Positions 884 to 47,670 of a stretch of 64,000 nt of DNA are shown in pieces. A program made the translations under genes and the position numbers. Position 1 is the first letter of the stretch, and each line of letters opens with the position of its first letter. This stretch comes from Ruminococcus sp. YE71 (GTDB lineage: Bacteria; Bacillota; Clostridia; Oscillospirales; Ruminococcaceae): positions 152,222-216,221 of the forward strand of contig NZ_FPIR01000004.1 in the NCBI RefSeq assembly GCF_900119155.1, in the 5' to 3' direction. Below the pieces are notes generated by a model that saw nothing but the letters and a program-made list of their open reading frames with translations, did no database searches and was not told where the DNA came from.

Positions 884-1867
884 ATGGAAAGATACACAGT
901 CAGCGCGGTCAGGATAAACGCCGCCGCGAAAAAGGCCAAAGAACGGCTCGCAGGGGTCGTGCGCGAACCTGCGGACATACCCATCGAGCTGAAACGCAAA
1001 CTGAAGATACGTCATATCAGGAGAAAGAGTGATACTATGGAAAGATTTGAGATAAAGGTCGATTACGCAAAGGCAGGTCTCCCCGACCCCTGCACACAGC
1101 CGCTTCTCGACTGCTACGTGCCTACCATTTTTGAGGAGACAGGCAGACGCAGCAGAGGCGCGGTCGTTATCTGCCCCGGCGGCGGCTACGACTGGTGCAG
1201 CGAGCGCGAAGCCGAGCCTGTGGCGTTCCGCTTCATGGGGGCAGGGTACGCGTGCTTCGTGCTGAGGTATTCCTGCGTGGACAAGAAGTTCCCCACCGCC
1301 CTGCTGGAATGTGCGGCGGCTTTGAAGTACGTCCGCGAGAACGCCGAGCGTTTCGACATCGACCCCGACAGGGTCTTTGTGATGGGCTTCTCCGCAGGCG
1401 GTCATCTGGCGGCTTCGATGGCGAATCTGTGGAACAGCTCCGTGCTCAGCGAGACCCTCGGCTGTGACAGCGAACTGCTGAAAGTCAATGGCTCGATACT
1501 CTGCTATCCCGTCATCCTCTCCGACCCCGAACTGACCCACGAAGGCACTATCTCGAACCTCCTGACCCACAAGGACGACCCCGAGCTCAGAGATCTCGTC
1601 TCAATGGACAAGCGCGTGGGCGAACAGACACCCCCGACTTTCATCTGGCACTGTGCCGACGACGGCTGCGTCCCCGTTGAAAACACGCTCTTCTACACCG
1701 CGGCGCTCTCCAAAAACAAGGTGCCCTTCGAGAGCCACATCTACCCCTACGGCGGCCACGGCCTCTCCCTCTGCGACGGCACGACCGCAACAGGCGACTG
1801 GCACATAGTTCCCGCCGCCGCCACCTGGGTAGACCACTGCCTCCGCTGGCTCAGCGAACAGTGCTGA
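884..1867 (+). CDS. Alpha/beta hydrolase (Aes/BD-FAE-type esterase)
   Basis: A carboxylesterase-type alpha/beta hydrolase, probably cytoplasmic. Visible motifs are an oxyanion motif CPGGGYDW, the nucleophile elbow GFSAGGH (Ser about residue 170 from this start), the acid in HCADDGCVP and the catalytic His in YGGHGLS, so the triad is complete. The family acts on acetyl or feruloyl esters of sugars and on small acyl esters; the substrate here is unknown. Start choice is uncertain. ATG 884 sits 3 bp after the previous stop with a weak GAGGA. An internal ATG at 1037 has AGGAGA upstream and gives 276 residues that begin exactly where family members usually begin. The extra 51 residues are basic and match nothing I know. 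No signal peptide is seen with either start. Confidence 0.85.
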   Translation: MERYTVSAVRINAAAKKAKERLAGVVREPADIPIELKRKLKIRHIRRKSDTMERFEIKVDYAKAGLPDPCTQPLLDCYVPTIFEETGRRSRGAVVICPGGGYDWCSEREAEPVAFRFMGAGYACFVLRYSCVDKKFPTALLECAAALKYVRENAERFDIDPDRVFVMGFSAGGHLAASMANLWNSSVLSETLGCDSELLKVNGSILCYPVILSDPELTHEGTISNLLTHKDDPELRDLVSMDKRVGEQTPPTFIWHCADDGCVPVENTLFYTAALSKNKVPFESHIYPYGGHGLSLCDGTTATGDWHIVPAAATWVDHCLRWLSEQC

Positions 1868-2972: not shown

Positions 2973-2996
2973 GATAGCTATCTTAAAAAATAGTCT

Positions 2997-3160
2997 GTCG
3001 TTTCTTCCATCCGGACTATCTGGATCCGACCGAAAAGATCAGACCCAACCGTCGGTATCGGAATTTCACCGATTCGGCTCTGTCACAGCGCCGTGTTCGG
3101 CACTGCTTCGAGTTTGCGGACTTTTACCGCCGGTGTGGAATTTCACCACCCCTTGAAACA
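2997..3160 (-). promoter_or_regulatory. FMN riboswitch (RFN element)
   Basis: On the minus strand the conserved RFN blocks appear in order: AGGGGTGGTGAAATTCC, ACCGGCGGTAAAAGTCCGC, GCCGAATCGGTGAAATTCCG, ACCGACGGT and AGTCCGGATGGAAGA. A closing stem GTTTC / GAAAC joins the ends. This is a complete aptamer controlling ribU by transcription termination. Confidence 0.93.
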
Positions 3161-3224
3161 TATTGTGGATGTGCTCATATCCTGCCCGATATGAGTTCTA
3201 TAACATCACCGCGGCGCGGTGTTG

Positions 3225-3827
3225 TCAGCCTAACTGAAGCTTGATGCCGCAGTTTCCGCAGAAGATGATACCTCTTGCCATATCTGCCGCAGAGATACCG
3301 ATAACAGCTCCGCACTCGGGGCACTGGCACTCGTAGCGTTCCTCAGCAGAGGGTGCAGGTGCAGGTGCAGGCTCAGGCTCGGATGCAGACGGCTCGGGAG
3401 CAGGTGCTTCGGCAGTCTCCTCAGCGGGAGTCTCGGGAGCGAGCTCGGTCTGTTCGAGCTCATCAAGACCCGTAAGATCTTCGAGGCGGTCGCCCTCTAC
3501 CAGTTCATCGGTATTTGCGGGCATATCCTCTGCTGCGAAAGCATTATCTGCGGTAGCGCCGCCCTCAGTAGGGTCGCTGTCGAAAACTTCAACGGGGATA
3601 TCGTCGAGATCTTCAAGATCATCGTCAAGGACATCCGCGTATTCATCGAGGTCGTCGATGAACATACCCAGCTCGTCGATAAGCTGAGCGTTAGTCTCGA
3701 TCTCATCGGCCATTTCTTCGAGCAGATCGCTCATAGCGTGAAGTACCTTACCCTCGGGTGTGGTATCGCTGATATTCAGCCCTGCCATAAGACCCTTGAT
3801 GTAGCCAACCTTCTTTGAAAGCTCCAT
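3225..3827 (-). CDS. CD1247 N-terminal domain protein with C-terminal zinc ribbon
   Basis: A 200-residue acidic protein. The first 80 or so residues (YIKGLMAGLNI, then many Leu/Glu/Asp) match the short helical domain named after C. difficile CD1247. A long acidic and then Pro/Ala/Glu linker follows, including an APAPAPS stretch. The protein ends in a CxxC...CxxC zinc ribbon (CPECG and CGNCG). The function is not known. The start at 3827 was chosen because GGAG precedes it and because the homologous domain begins there; the longer frame upstream reads through noncoding sequence. It is the last gene of the efp transcript, 97 bp after efp, a neighbour pairing repeated in many Clostridia. Confidence 0.8.
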   Translation of the reverse strand: MELSKKVGYIKGLMAGLNISDTTPEGKVLHAMSDLLEEMADEIETNAQLIDELGMFIDDLDEYADVLDDDLEDLDDIPVEVFDSDPTEGGATADNAFAAEDMPANTDELVEGDRLEDLTGLDELEQTELAPETPAEETAEAPAPEPSASEPEPAPAPAPSAEERYECQCPECGAVIGISAADMARGIIFCGNCGIKLQLG

Positions 3828-3924
3828 AATGCTTCGCTCCTTTTTTTTAAAGATGAGATGACCCTGTTGAAACAACATCGCCGCAGGCGGCACGGTCTCT
3901 CTTATCTCTTTGTTATTATCTGAT

Positions 3925-4482
3925 TTAAGCGCGCTCCATGTACTCGCAGGTTCTGGTGTCGATCCTGATGCGGTCGCCTGTGTTGATGAACAGCGGAACC
4001 TTGATCTCAGCGCCGGTCTCAACGGTTGCGGGCTTGGTAGCGTTGGTAGCGGTATCGCCCTTGATGCCGGGTTCGGTGTCGGTAACTTCGAGCTCTACGA
4101 ATGTAGGAGGCTCAACGCCGAATACCTTGCCCTTGTAGGACAGTACCTTACATACCATGTTCTCCTTAACGAACTTGAAGTTATCGGAAAGCTCTGCGGA
4201 GTTGATCGGTACCATATCATAGGTCTCGGGATCCATGAAGTAGTAGAGATCGCCGTCGGAGTAGCTGTATTCCATATCCTTTCTCTCAACGAAAGCGGTC
4301 GGGAACTTAGCGGTCGGGTTGTATGTCTTTTCAACTACGGAACCTGTGATAACGTTTCTTACCTTAGTTCTTACGAAAGCAGCGCCCTTACCGGGTTTTA
4401 CGTGCTGGAACTCAACGATCTGCATTACGTTGCCGTCCTCTTCAAAAGTCATACCATTTCTGAAATCGCCTGCTGTAATCAT
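3925..4482 (-). CDS. efp: Translation elongation factor P
   Basis: A 185-residue protein of normal EF-P length. It enters the ribosomal E site and helps peptide bonds form at polyproline stretches. Domain I carries the loop KPGKGAAF, whose Lys at about residue 32 is the tip residue modified in many bacteria. Domains II and III follow ([10 protein letters not shown]; the C-terminal [26 protein letters not shown] region is the family signature). GGAGG lies 10 nt before the ATG. It has its own promoter at 4551-4579 and runs into the CD1247-type gene. The upstream genes are an M24 peptidase and aroQ, the usual Firmicutes order. Confidence 0.97.
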
Positions 4483-7741: not shown

Positions 7742-8227
7742 TCACCTCTTTGGTCTTTCGGGCAGAAACACCCTTTCGATGCGTCTTTTGAACCTGAACG
7801 GAAGGCTGGTTTCGGGCTCGATGGGGAACACGAATATCGAGCGTATACCCATCGCGTGGCAGCCCATCACGTCGGTGAATATCTGGTCGCCCACCGCCGC
7901 TATCTCGCGCTTCGGCAGACCCATGAGCTTTCTCGCCCTGATGTAGCCGATGGGCAGGGGTTTCGCGCCGTTCGGCACGAAGTCGAGCCCCAGCTGACGT
8001 GCGAACGGCGTGACCCTCTCAGGCTTGTTGTTCGACACGATCATAAGTTTTATCCCTGCCGCCTTCATGGTGTCCAGCCAGTCCAGAGAAGACTGCGGCG
8101 GCACGGGGTTATTGTGTGTGGTAAGCGTGTTGTCGAGGTCGAGCAGCAGTCCCCTGATATGCTTCTGTTTCAGGAACTGCGGCGTTATCTCGGTCACGTC
8201 ATTGAATACATAAGTAGGCTTAAACAT
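7742..8227 (-). CDS. YqeG family HAD-type phosphatase
   Basis: A 161-residue HAD IIIA phosphatase. Motif I is LLLDLDNTLT (nucleophile Asp and acid Asp), motif II VSNN, motif III Lys near GAKPLP, and motif IV VGDQIFTDVMGC. It is the right length for YqeG, whose plant relative dephosphorylates phosphatidylglycerophosphate and whose bacterial role is still debated; in Bacilli it sits next to yqeH and nadD/yqeK genes. Here it opens a three-gene operon with a small protein and a nuclease. No strong ribosome site precedes the ATG (only AGAGATATTT). Upstream lies a structured RNA region. Confidence 0.9.
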   Translation of the reverse strand: MFKPTYVFNDVTEITPQFLKQKHIRGLLLDLDNTLTTHNNPVPPQSSLDWLDTMKAAGIKLMIVSNNKPERVTPFARQLGLDFVPNGAKPLPIGYIRARKLMGLPKREIAAVGDQIFTDVMGCHAMGIRSIFVFPIEPETSLPFRFKRRIERVFLPERPKR

Positions 8228-8264: not shown

Positions 8265-8303
8265 AAAAAAGTCCCCTGTCCTCACCCTCATCCCCGTGAC
8301 AGT
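8265..8303 (-). terminator. Possible terminator after the structured RNA
   Basis: On the minus strand CTGTC pairs with GACAG across a G-rich loop, followed by GGGGAC and six T. The stem is weak, so this is tentative. It would define the 3' end of the RNA at 8304-8463 about 50 nt before the YqeG start. Confidence 0.35.
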
Positions 8304-8463
8304 GCAGGTAGTAATAATAAGTTGTACGCCGTGCATTTGTTACATTGCTGAGCGTAAAAGTAAAAAGAGGAGTCGAACCTCTGTGCCCGCCCCGGGACAC
8401 AACCTTGAAGCGAGGCTCATTCTCAGCCTCAGGAGATACACTCTCATCACGGGAACTACCAGC
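8304..8463 (-). ncRNA. Candidate tRNA-mimicking small RNA (Y RNA / YrlA-like)
   Basis: About 160 nt on the minus strand, starting 9 nt after the stop of the DIP1984 gene. The ends pair: GCTGGTAGT (8463-8455) with ACTACCTGC (8312-8304), broken only by a T-T mismatch. Inside are a D-arm-like hairpin GAGA-GTGTA-TCTC (8445-8433), a perfect hairpin GAGGCT-GAGAATG-AGCCTC (8430-8412), a GTGTCC...GGGCAC hairpin (about 8402-8383) and a perfect tRNA T-arm AGAGG-TTCGACT-CCTCT (8382-8366). No acceptor stem or anticodon loop fits a real tRNA, including tRNA-Sec. A long end-to-end stem closing a tRNA-like module is the architecture described for bacterial Y RNAs. The GGUAGU / ACUACC stem also resembles the lower stem of animal Y RNAs as I recall them. 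No Ro60/Rsr gene is in the window. Confidence 0.45.
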
Positions 8464-8471
8464 AAATATTA

Positions 8472-8924
8472 TCAGATAAGATCGGTGTTCCAGTTCGCGC
8501 CCTGAAGTTTCGTGTCGGTCTCACGAAGCTGTTTCGACAGCTTGTCGAGATCCTTCTGCATAGCGCGGACGTTCACGGTCGGGAGTATCTTCACCTCGCT
8601 GCCCGACATCCTGCGAATATTCATATTTGCCGATGCGAGCAGTGCGCGGATGGCTGCTATCTTCATCGTCAGCACATCGCGTTTTGCGATTATCGCGGAG
8701 AGCGTCTCGCCGTCTGTGACAGCCACCGAGTTTGTGTGATTTATGCGGATAATGAGCTCTTCGAGCCTTTCACAGCAGGAATCGAGTTCTGCCAGCAGTT
8801 CGGCGGGGTCTTCATTCGGCTTTTCGCCCTCCTGCACCTTTGCATTGTTCTCAAGTCTTGTTCTGAGCTGTTCGATCCGCTTCTGAAGATCGGCTCTTTC
8901 GCCAAGTGCCTCTGCAAGTTTCAT
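8472..8924 (-). CDS. DIP1984 family protein
   Basis: A 150-residue, almost fully helical, charged protein. The family pattern is clear: an N-terminal block beginning MKLAEALGERADLQKRI, then NAKVQEGEKPNEDP, INHTNS, ERDVL-like AKRDVLTMKI, VPTV-like ILPTVNV and a C-terminal QGANWNTDLI. The founding member is Corynebacterium DIP1984; 'septicolysin' also appears as a name in databases. The function is unproven. As I recall, computational work on RNA-repair systems has noted such genes in RNA-related neighbourhoods. The start at 8924 follows AGGAG; a longer frame upstream would run into the rpsU terminator. It directly precedes the tRNA-like RNA on the same strand. Confidence 0.88.
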   Translation of the reverse strand: MKLAEALGERADLQKRIEQLRTRLENNAKVQEGEKPNEDPAELLAELDSCCERLEELIIRINHTNSVAVTDGETLSAIIAKRDVLTMKIAAIRALLASANMNIRRMSGSEVKILPTVNVRAMQKDLDKLSKQLRETDTKLQGANWNTDLI

Positions 8925-34617: not shown

Positions 34618-34692
34618 TGGGATATAGCCAAGGGGTAAGGCAAGGGACTTTGACTCCCTCACTCGCTGGTTCGAATCCAGTTATCCCAACCA
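34618..34692 (+). tRNA. tRNA-Gln (UUG)
   Basis: Acceptor TGGGATA pairs with TATCCCA, followed by discriminator A and an encoded CCA. The anticodon loop CTTTGAC on an AGGGA/TCCCT stem gives anticodon UUG. T-arm CTGG-TTCGAAT-CCAG. Confidence 0.95.
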
Positions 34693-34721: not shown

Positions 34722-34797
34722 TGCCGCGTCGCCAAGTGGTAAGGCAGCGGACTCTGACTCCGCCATTCCGTAGGTTCGAATCCTTCCGCGGCAGCCA
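34722..34797 (+). tRNA. tRNA-Gln (CUG)
   Basis: Acceptor TGCCGCG / CGCGGCA, discriminator G and encoded CCA. The anticodon loop CTCTGAC on CGGA/TCCG gives anticodon CUG. T-arm TAGG-TTCGAAT-CCTT. It follows the UUG isoacceptor by 29 bp in one transcript. Confidence 0.95.
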
Positions 34798-47498: not shown

Positions 47499-47535
47499 TA
47501 AAAAACGGGAACTGCTCTTAGAGACAGTTCCCGTT
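47499..47535 (-). terminator. Riboswitch terminator upstream of thiS
   Basis: AACGGGAACTG / CAGTTCCCGTT, 11-bp stem with a 10-nt loop, then TTTTT on the minus strand, between aptamer and thiS. Confidence 0.88.
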
Positions 47536-47548
47536 ATCGGTCAGATAT

Positions 47549-47634
47549 GTCCCTACGTTGGCATTACCCAAATCAGGTTCAAGGGTCAGGCACTCGGACG
47601 TGCTACTCTCAGCCTGTTTACAGGCTCCCCTTTG
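47549..47634 (-). promoter_or_regulatory. TPP riboswitch (THI element)
   Basis: On the minus strand CAAAGGGGAGCCTGT, CAGGCTGAGAGTAGC, GACCCTTGAACCTGATTTGG and GTAATGCCAACGTAGGGA: all conserved THI-box segments in order. It controls thiSFGHE by termination. Confidence 0.95.
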
Positions 47635-47670
47635 TAAATGTCTGTGCGGTCTTTCGACCTCACTTATGTT

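Follow-up and report, generated by a model that had tools for sequence, protein, structure and literature searches.

A conserved, pseudoknotted RNA accompanies genes of the DIP1984 family on bacterial chromosomes, plasmids and viral contigs

Y RNAs have 5′ and 3′ ends that are joined by a helix, OLE is a structured RNA of bacteria that acts together with the Oap proteins dedicated to it, and type III toxin-antitoxin systems such as ToxIN place repeats of an antitoxin RNA upstream of the gene for a nuclease toxin, the two lying side by side on mobile DNA. Rfam includes OLE, as well as ROOL and GOLLD. The latter two are phage RNAs that occur near tRNA islands (PMC12286853), and YrlA, a bacterial Y RNA, has been suggested to act in tRNA decay or to inhibit a tRNA nuclease competitively (PMC7790460). 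Here we describe a structured RNA that lies directly behind a gene of the DIP1984 family in a 64,000-nucleotide stretch of the genome of Ruminococcus sp. YE71, hereafter the window. A preliminary description had read this RNA as a Y-RNA-like tRNA mimic, 160 nt long and closed by an end-to-end stem, that would form a ribonucleoprotein with the DIP1984 protein.

The gene order on the minus strand of the window is rpsU (S21), DIP1984, the structured RNA and yqeG (7742-8227), with the DIP1984 stop codon at 8474-8472. Assignment of the gene to the DIP1984 family holds under both curated models, as it matches NF038048 with 184.9 bits against a cut-off of 70 and the Pfam family PF20935 (DUF6847) with 178.5 bits against a cut-off of 27. 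Four helices are predicted for the protein (AlphaFold2 model, pLDDT 83.4), and PDB entry 3kdq, a DIP1984 homologue with no function assigned, is both the only significant fold match of this model and the only close solved relative; other matches to solved structures were set aside as helical or designed proteins. Some Acinetobacter plasmid records annotate DIP1984 as septicolysin. In the open-access literature that we searched for DIP1984, DUF6847, septicolysin, 3KDQ and wider topics (the last covered in part), titles and the openings of abstracts describe no RNA beside DIP1984; DUF6847 returned no paper, most of the septicolysin papers listed are Acinetobacter reports, judged by title, and the mentions of 3KDQ fall in unrelated papers.

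Every element named in the preliminary description was located where it had been placed. The features of the locus are as follows.

8472..8924, minus strand: DIP1984 family gene (DUF6847; NF038048 and PF20935), 150 aa, ATG start
8272..8464, minus strand: structured RNA, whole match to covariance model R1, ~193 nt, 122.3 bits (the window row is among the 23 that built R1; 98 aligned copies)
8456..8460, minus strand: conserved GGTAG, core of the proposed 5′ end strand; strongly conserved, no covariation beyond swapped partners
8447..8455, minus strand: helix b, 5′ strand TTCCCGTGA, pairing with 8291-8299 in the single-sequence fold and by reading; covaries
8438..8442, minus strand: helix c, 5′ strand AGTGT, pairing with 8301-8305
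8433..8436, minus strand: pseudoknot e, TCTC, pairing with GAGA at 8424-8421 in the loop of hairpin d
8412..8430, minus strand: hairpin d, GAGGCT-GAGAATG-AGCCTC, called D-arm-like in the preliminary description; main helix covaries
8383..8400, minus strand: hairpin f, GTGTCC-CGGGGC-GGGCAC, whose loop GGGC pairs with GCTC at 8350-8353 (pseudoknot g)
8366..8382, minus strand: tRNA T-arm, AGAGG-TTCGACT-CCTCT, perfect in the window
8350..8353, minus strand: pseudoknot g, 3′ strand GCTC; judged by pairing fraction and swap test
8307..8311, minus strand: conserved CTACC, core of the proposed 3′ end strand; strongly conserved together with GGTAG, no covariation beyond swapped partners
8301..8305, minus strand: helix c, 3′ strand GCACT; covaries
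8291..8299, minus strand: helix b, 3′ strand TCACGGGGA, from the single-sequence fold; covaries across copies
8272..8289, minus strand: conserved G-rich 3′ end GAGGGTGAGGACAGGGGA; conserved among the compared copies (A2), absent from Acinetobacter copies

The proposed end strands GCTGGTAGT (8463-8455) and ACTACCTGC (8312-8304, both on the minus strand) span exactly 160 nt from end to end. A structured RNA is indeed present, but it extends ~30 nt further, to about 8272, through the conserved G-rich 3′ end. This end (GAGGGYGGG..GGGGA) contains three runs of G that are unpaired in the proposed structure. The GAGAATG loop of hairpin d (8418-8424, minus strand), together with its surroundings, may resemble the TPP riboswitch element CUGAGA. 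Folding of the single sequence only mildly beats shuffled controls (z = -1.92; 10 of 200 shuffles fold equally well) and is weak by itself, so that a comparison across copies was needed to settle the RNA.

For this comparison, DIP1984 genes came from three sources: the genus (4 of 13 genomes), the family (matches in 21 of 148 genomes, 19 of them above the cut-off) and contigs of GTDB genomes, limited to the best 80 of 556 relatives. The sequence 3′ of the DIP1984 stop codon is similar in most loci. We used 23 sequences to build a covariance model, R1, and ran it at E<=0.01 on the window and 99 loci (100 sources). Seven of the loci L001-L106 were left out: L002, which is the window; L030, L043 and L067, which are exact duplicates; L106, a near copy of L094; L020, in which the contig ends after DIP1984; and L022, a gene fragment whose RNA scored 44.1 bits in a later search. 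R1 matched 97 of the 100 sources, twice in one of them (L013) and always downstream of DIP1984 on the strand of the gene; since 23 of the sources had trained the model, the fair figure is 74 of the remaining 77. The three misses comprise a divergent DIP1984 (L021), a locus with a sub-threshold protein match of 24.2 bits (L023) and an Acinetobacter locus (L025). With filters off, the Acinetobacter locus matches at 21.1 bits (E = 3.4e-5), and neither L021 nor the duplicated copy L145 gives a match even then. Two genomes each carry two DIP1984 genes ~2 kb apart on one contig (L130 and L146 in G168, L131 and L145 in G254); by eye, the stretch behind the second copy lacks the G-rich end in both.

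The median gap between the stop codon and the RNA is 7 nt. An RNA in this position could be a cis-acting element of the 3′ untranslated region that only governs how stable the DIP1984 message is or how well it is translated, an autoregulatory arrangement that would fit the same-strand location, no more than 30 nt from the stop in 85 of 98 copies, and in which the DIP1984 protein could bind its own message. However, in two bacterial loci an entire GNAT acetyltransferase gene (identified by Pfam; 1966-2403 in L005 and 2453-2899 in L061) separates DIP1984 from the RNA, which is kept and starts 6 nt and 3 nt, respectively, after the intervening gene. In three viral contigs (L190, L186 and L185) the RNA lies 144, 303 and 519 nt past the DIP1984 stop, and L013 carries two tandem RNA copies (1076-1290 and 1299-1474, minus strand) behind a single DIP1984 gene. 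Two covarying pseudoknots maintained over several phyla also exceed, in our judgement, what would be expected of such an element, and we consider autoregulation unlikely. DIP1984 also has a GNAT gene nearby on a plasmid of Mycolicibacterium (L194).

Across the 98 aligned copies, 81.0% of the cells in proposed pairs are paired, and 779 cells carry double changes, compared to 266±21 in shuffled controls and a maximum of 203 when partners were slid; this alignment was fitted to the covariance model and therefore leans towards it, and the relatedness of the copies enters all pairing and swap statistics. The first MAFFT alignment, of 23 sequences, gave the same picture, with 139 double changes compared to 52.8±6.4 shuffled and at most 47 slid, the structure having been set by eye from sequences like those in it. 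We then compared each strand with its own partner and with partners swapped between copies. Helix b (6.31 with own partners, 3.61±0.10 swapped) and helix c (5.26 and 3.30±0.10) showed strong covariation, with 93.7% of cells paired in helix c and double changes at each of its six pairs. Hairpin d scored 4.17 with own partners and 2.91±0.09 with swapped ones (74.5% of cells paired in its main helix, double changes at 5 of 5 pairs), and pseudoknot e scored 3.88 and 3.30±0.07 (90.2% of cells paired, double changes at 3 of 4 pairs). Pseudoknot g was weaker but clear (4.37 with own partners, 3.90±0.06 swapped; 73.6% of cells paired). Hairpin f, which is poorly aligned, has 63.1% of its cells paired, and helix i is weak at 66.0%.

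The end stem of the preliminary description did not hold up in these tests: 8 of 9 positions of GCTGGTAGT and ACTACCTGC pair in the window, but the strands are conserved in sequence without covariation, and their cores GGTAG and CTACC, taken as an end stem or as a pseudoknot, score 4.06 with own partners and 4.07 with swapped ones. Judging from covariation, the RNA is instead closed by helices b and c, which lie near its ends. The tRNA T-arm motif is present in 56 of the 98 aligned copies and missing in 42, indicating that it is common but dispensable. Conservation and covariation together make the RNA firm as a real entity, with hairpins far beyond chance, and the comparison of copies establishes, at the level of sequence, a conserved fold with closing helices b and c, covarying pseudoknots e and g, and an optional tRNA T-arm.

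How closely the RNA goes with DIP1984 can be seen from searches of whole genomes, which used stricter filters, so that weak copies were lost. In the family (148 genomes), R1 was found in 19 genomes, 18 of which have a DIP1984 match (a gene fragment in G109); the nineteenth, G113, has a marginal partial match of 19.3 bits. Family genomes with DIP1984 and no R1 match are G091, where the contig ends just past the gene, G114, which holds the divergent locus L021, and G143, in which the protein match of 24.2 bits is below the cut-off. In the phylum (299 genomes), all 17 genomes with R1 also have a DIP1984 match (a fragment in G377), and among the 19 with a DIP1984 match R1 was absent only from G302, where the RNA of locus L141 appears at 26.6 bits once filters are switched off, and from G315 (27.9 bits, below the cut-off). 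Three genomes (G185, G380 and G452) matched R1 with just 24-25 bits over 39 bases, and by eye their downstream regions keep the conserved ends. Matches away from any DIP1984 gene scored 19.3 (G113), 20.3 (G455) and 21.5 bits (G185).

The same association bears on the possibility that the RNA is a leader or riboswitch of the gene that follows it, which is yqeG in the window. In two members of the genus the 3′ end of the RNA does lie a few bases at most from the start of yqeG. At the yqeG loci of the genus, however, the RNA is present in 4 of 4 with DIP1984, and all 7 of the 7 that lack DIP1984 are without a match at E<=0.01 (best score 7.2 bits), and the sequence past the RNA varies between loci, so that a leader function is contradicted and can be regarded as extremely improbable. 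One of the yqeG loci without DIP1984 (L176) contains only rpsU, a terminator-like hairpin and yqeG, resembling an empty site, and another (L173) has a different small frame in the intergenic stretch. Pairwise distances between RNAs correlate with those between DIP1984 proteins (r = 0.60 over 96 loci, compared to a maximum of 0.21 in the null), a correlation that could also come from common descent alone. Comparison of loci and genomes thus places the RNA, with few exceptions, directly behind DIP1984 in the same orientation, and in the searched genomes without DIP1984 it was not convincingly found. Conservation and covariation behind other DIP1984 genes had been named beforehand as the point on which the pairing would stand or fall; both were found, and DIP1984 and the RNA form a conserved pair.

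The pair is distributed widely. Named isolates and plasmids place it in six phyla: Bacillota, Bacteroidota (Parabacteroides, L099), Campylobacterota (C. showae, L027), Cyanobacteriota (a Picosynechococcus plasmid, L024), Actinomycetota (Streptomyces, Streptantibioticus, Mycobacterium and Mycolicibacterium plasmids) and Pseudomonadota (a Paracoccus plasmid). The plasmid copies from Streptomyces, Mycobacterium, Mycolicibacterium, Streptantibioticus and Paracoccus score 57.5-73.7 bits with R1. Metagenome bins, which may be mis-binned, add Fusobacteriota, Spirochaetota, Synergistota and Chloroflexota. The copies on Acinetobacter and Enterococcus plasmids are reduced (19.0-21.1 bits) and score no better than the matches away from DIP1984, so that they rest mainly on position. 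In a collection of viral contigs, viral by their membership in it, there are seven DIP1984 loci, six of them with the RNA (20.0-61.1 bits); one of these (L187) resembles the Acinetobacter copy, and the seventh locus (L191) has a DIP1984 gene fragment, one tRNA and no R1 match. Contig L185 has a second weak R1 match at 3795-3985 (23.3 bits), ~600 nt past the first. Four of the seven viral loci lie inside tRNA arrays, with 4, 11, 7 and 6 tRNAs within ~4.4 kb (the four being L186, L188, L189 and L190), whereas tRNA genes occur beside 5 of 80 bacterial copies and 0 of 10 plasmid copies. The joint occurrence of RNA and DIP1984 on chromosomes, plasmids and viral contigs is thus borne out by comparison of these sequences, and the DIP1984 protein tree, which mixes phyla in places, suggests transfer.

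A patchy distribution with plasmid and viral carriers, and a protein tree that partly mixes phyla, would also fit a type III-like toxin-antitoxin system or another defence cassette in which the RNA neutralises the protein. PADLOC, however, returned weak matches for only one of five DIP1984 proteins (best E 0.0025), the protein is helical with a significant fold match only to its own homologue, and the RNA stands behind the gene and is usually single, which departs from the layout of type III systems. We therefore view a defence cassette as quite unlikely. A PHROGs search with DIP1984 gave nothing beyond weak matches, and among 50,697 phage records the DIP1984 protein of the window matched just 5.

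Known RNA families were examined by Rfam 15 scans at relaxed thresholds (E<=10 for the window, E<=1 for 23 further loci; 24 sources in all). At Rfam's own cut-offs there was no known RNA at the site in the window. The best tRNA-type match in the window, tRNA-Sec, reached 18.1 bits against a cut-off of 47 and was taken as chance, as were sR1 (12.5 bits) and sR14 (9.5 bits), both far below their cut-offs, and RT-12 in L007, which overlaps the 3′ end of the RNA with 29.3 bits against a cut-off of 44.2. ROOL, GOLLD and OLE were rejected as identities, with no Rfam match in the 24 sources and a size of ~193 nt here. Elsewhere in the window, FMN and TPP riboswitches (2995-3164 and 47532-47641, both minus strand) are ordinary Rfam matches, and two adjacent tRNA-Gln genes with anticodons TTG and CTG lie at 34618-34692 and 34722-34797 on the plus strand.

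One reading that remains close to the preliminary description is that of a genuine bacterial Y RNA, YrlA, left without its former partner Ro60/Rsr. The T-arm, the presence of a closing helix, a size of the same order and a genome lacking Rsr all agree with it: Rsr/TROVE (PF05731) has 0 matches in the source genome (G000, 99.96% complete), so that the absence of Rsr proposed for this locus extends to the genome, and in the family a TROVE protein is encoded in 2 of 148 genomes, both without a DIP1984 match, and in none of the 21 with one. Against it, the 24 sources gave no Y RNA or YrlA match, the YrlA model (RF02553) found nothing in the whole genome, the end stem offered as a Y RNA trait does not covary (helices b and c, near the ends, do), the protein partner is a different one, and pseudoknots e and g are part of the fold; we deem a lost-partner Y RNA very improbable. 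A whole-genome search with the Y_RNA model (RF00019) was uninformative, giving no signal in any control either. By the tests that could be run, the RNA is not a Y RNA, and the preliminary description's identification is not supported, although it may still work like one. The related claim of tRNA mimicry stands in part: the perfect T-arm (8382-8366) is confirmed, but its variable presence among copies shows that the motif is not required. ARAGORN finds no tRNA or tmRNA there, in agreement with the earlier statement that this is not a real tRNA.

Taken together, these observations argue that DIP1984 and the RNA most likely constitute a two-part module that makes a ribonucleoprotein. The gene and the RNA would be transcribed together, the RNA would afterwards be stabilised or set free, and it would be bound by the helical DIP1984 protein. 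More weakly, the T-arm and neighbouring hairpins might engage tRNA-handling enzymes, with the RNA serving as a decoy, scaffold or tRNA guardian. A connection to tRNA biology is hinted at by the T-arm motif and by the tRNA arrays of the viral contigs, and the copies without the motif, together with the bacterial contexts, call for caution on this link. Unrelated phage RNAs, ROOL and GOLLD, are likewise located close to tRNA islands (PMC12286853), which also counts against it. A tRNA-linked role of the particle, by analogy to proposals for Y RNAs, is for this reason put forward as a tentative working model, and the role in RNA surveillance or repair envisaged in the preliminary description is a guess. 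In its broadest and most speculative form, this model would have a widespread class of pseudoknotted, tRNA-mimicking RNAs act with DIP1984 as a mobile ribonucleoprotein on the tRNA pool. Viruses would keep this particle within their tRNA arrays as a means of protecting or managing tRNAs during infection, and bacteria and plasmids would use it likewise under stress; we consider this doubtful.

The RNA class appears to be new, as the RNA fits no identified class and the role of its protein fits none either: the RNA corresponds to no Rfam 15 family in the 24 sources and has no account in the open-access literature searched, the wide topics being covered in part. DIP1984, a family that has a solved structure but no assigned function, thereby gains a large conserved RNA as its partner, which makes the function of the protein directly testable. 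The RNA tracks DIP1984 over six phyla by isolates and plasmids, over more by bins, and onto viral contigs, and in our judgement new RNA classes that are this broad and have a single dedicated protein are rare.

Several described systems offer points of comparison. As with YrlA and Ro60/Rsr, a non-coding RNA with a tRNA-like part adjoins the gene of a dedicated protein (PMC7790460); unlike YrlA, the RNA described here has no Rfam match, no Rsr and a different protein, contains covarying pseudoknots and is closed by a different helix. It shares a T-arm with a TTCGANT loop with tRNA and tmRNA, from which it differs in receiving no ARAGORN call. The adjacent encoding of an RNA and a protein on mobile DNA resembles ToxIN, but here the RNA lies behind the gene and is usually single, and the protein is no recognisable endoribonuclease. 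ROOL and GOLLD are likewise structured RNAs with no function assigned that are often found near phage tRNA islands (PMC12286853), but they measure 659 nt and often >800 nt, compared to ~193 nt here, and ROOL has no identified protein partner. OLE RNA and its Oap proteins similarly represent a structured bacterial RNA with dedicated protein partners, and the RNA that accompanies DIP1984 is set apart from them by its size, its protein and its lack of an Rfam match.
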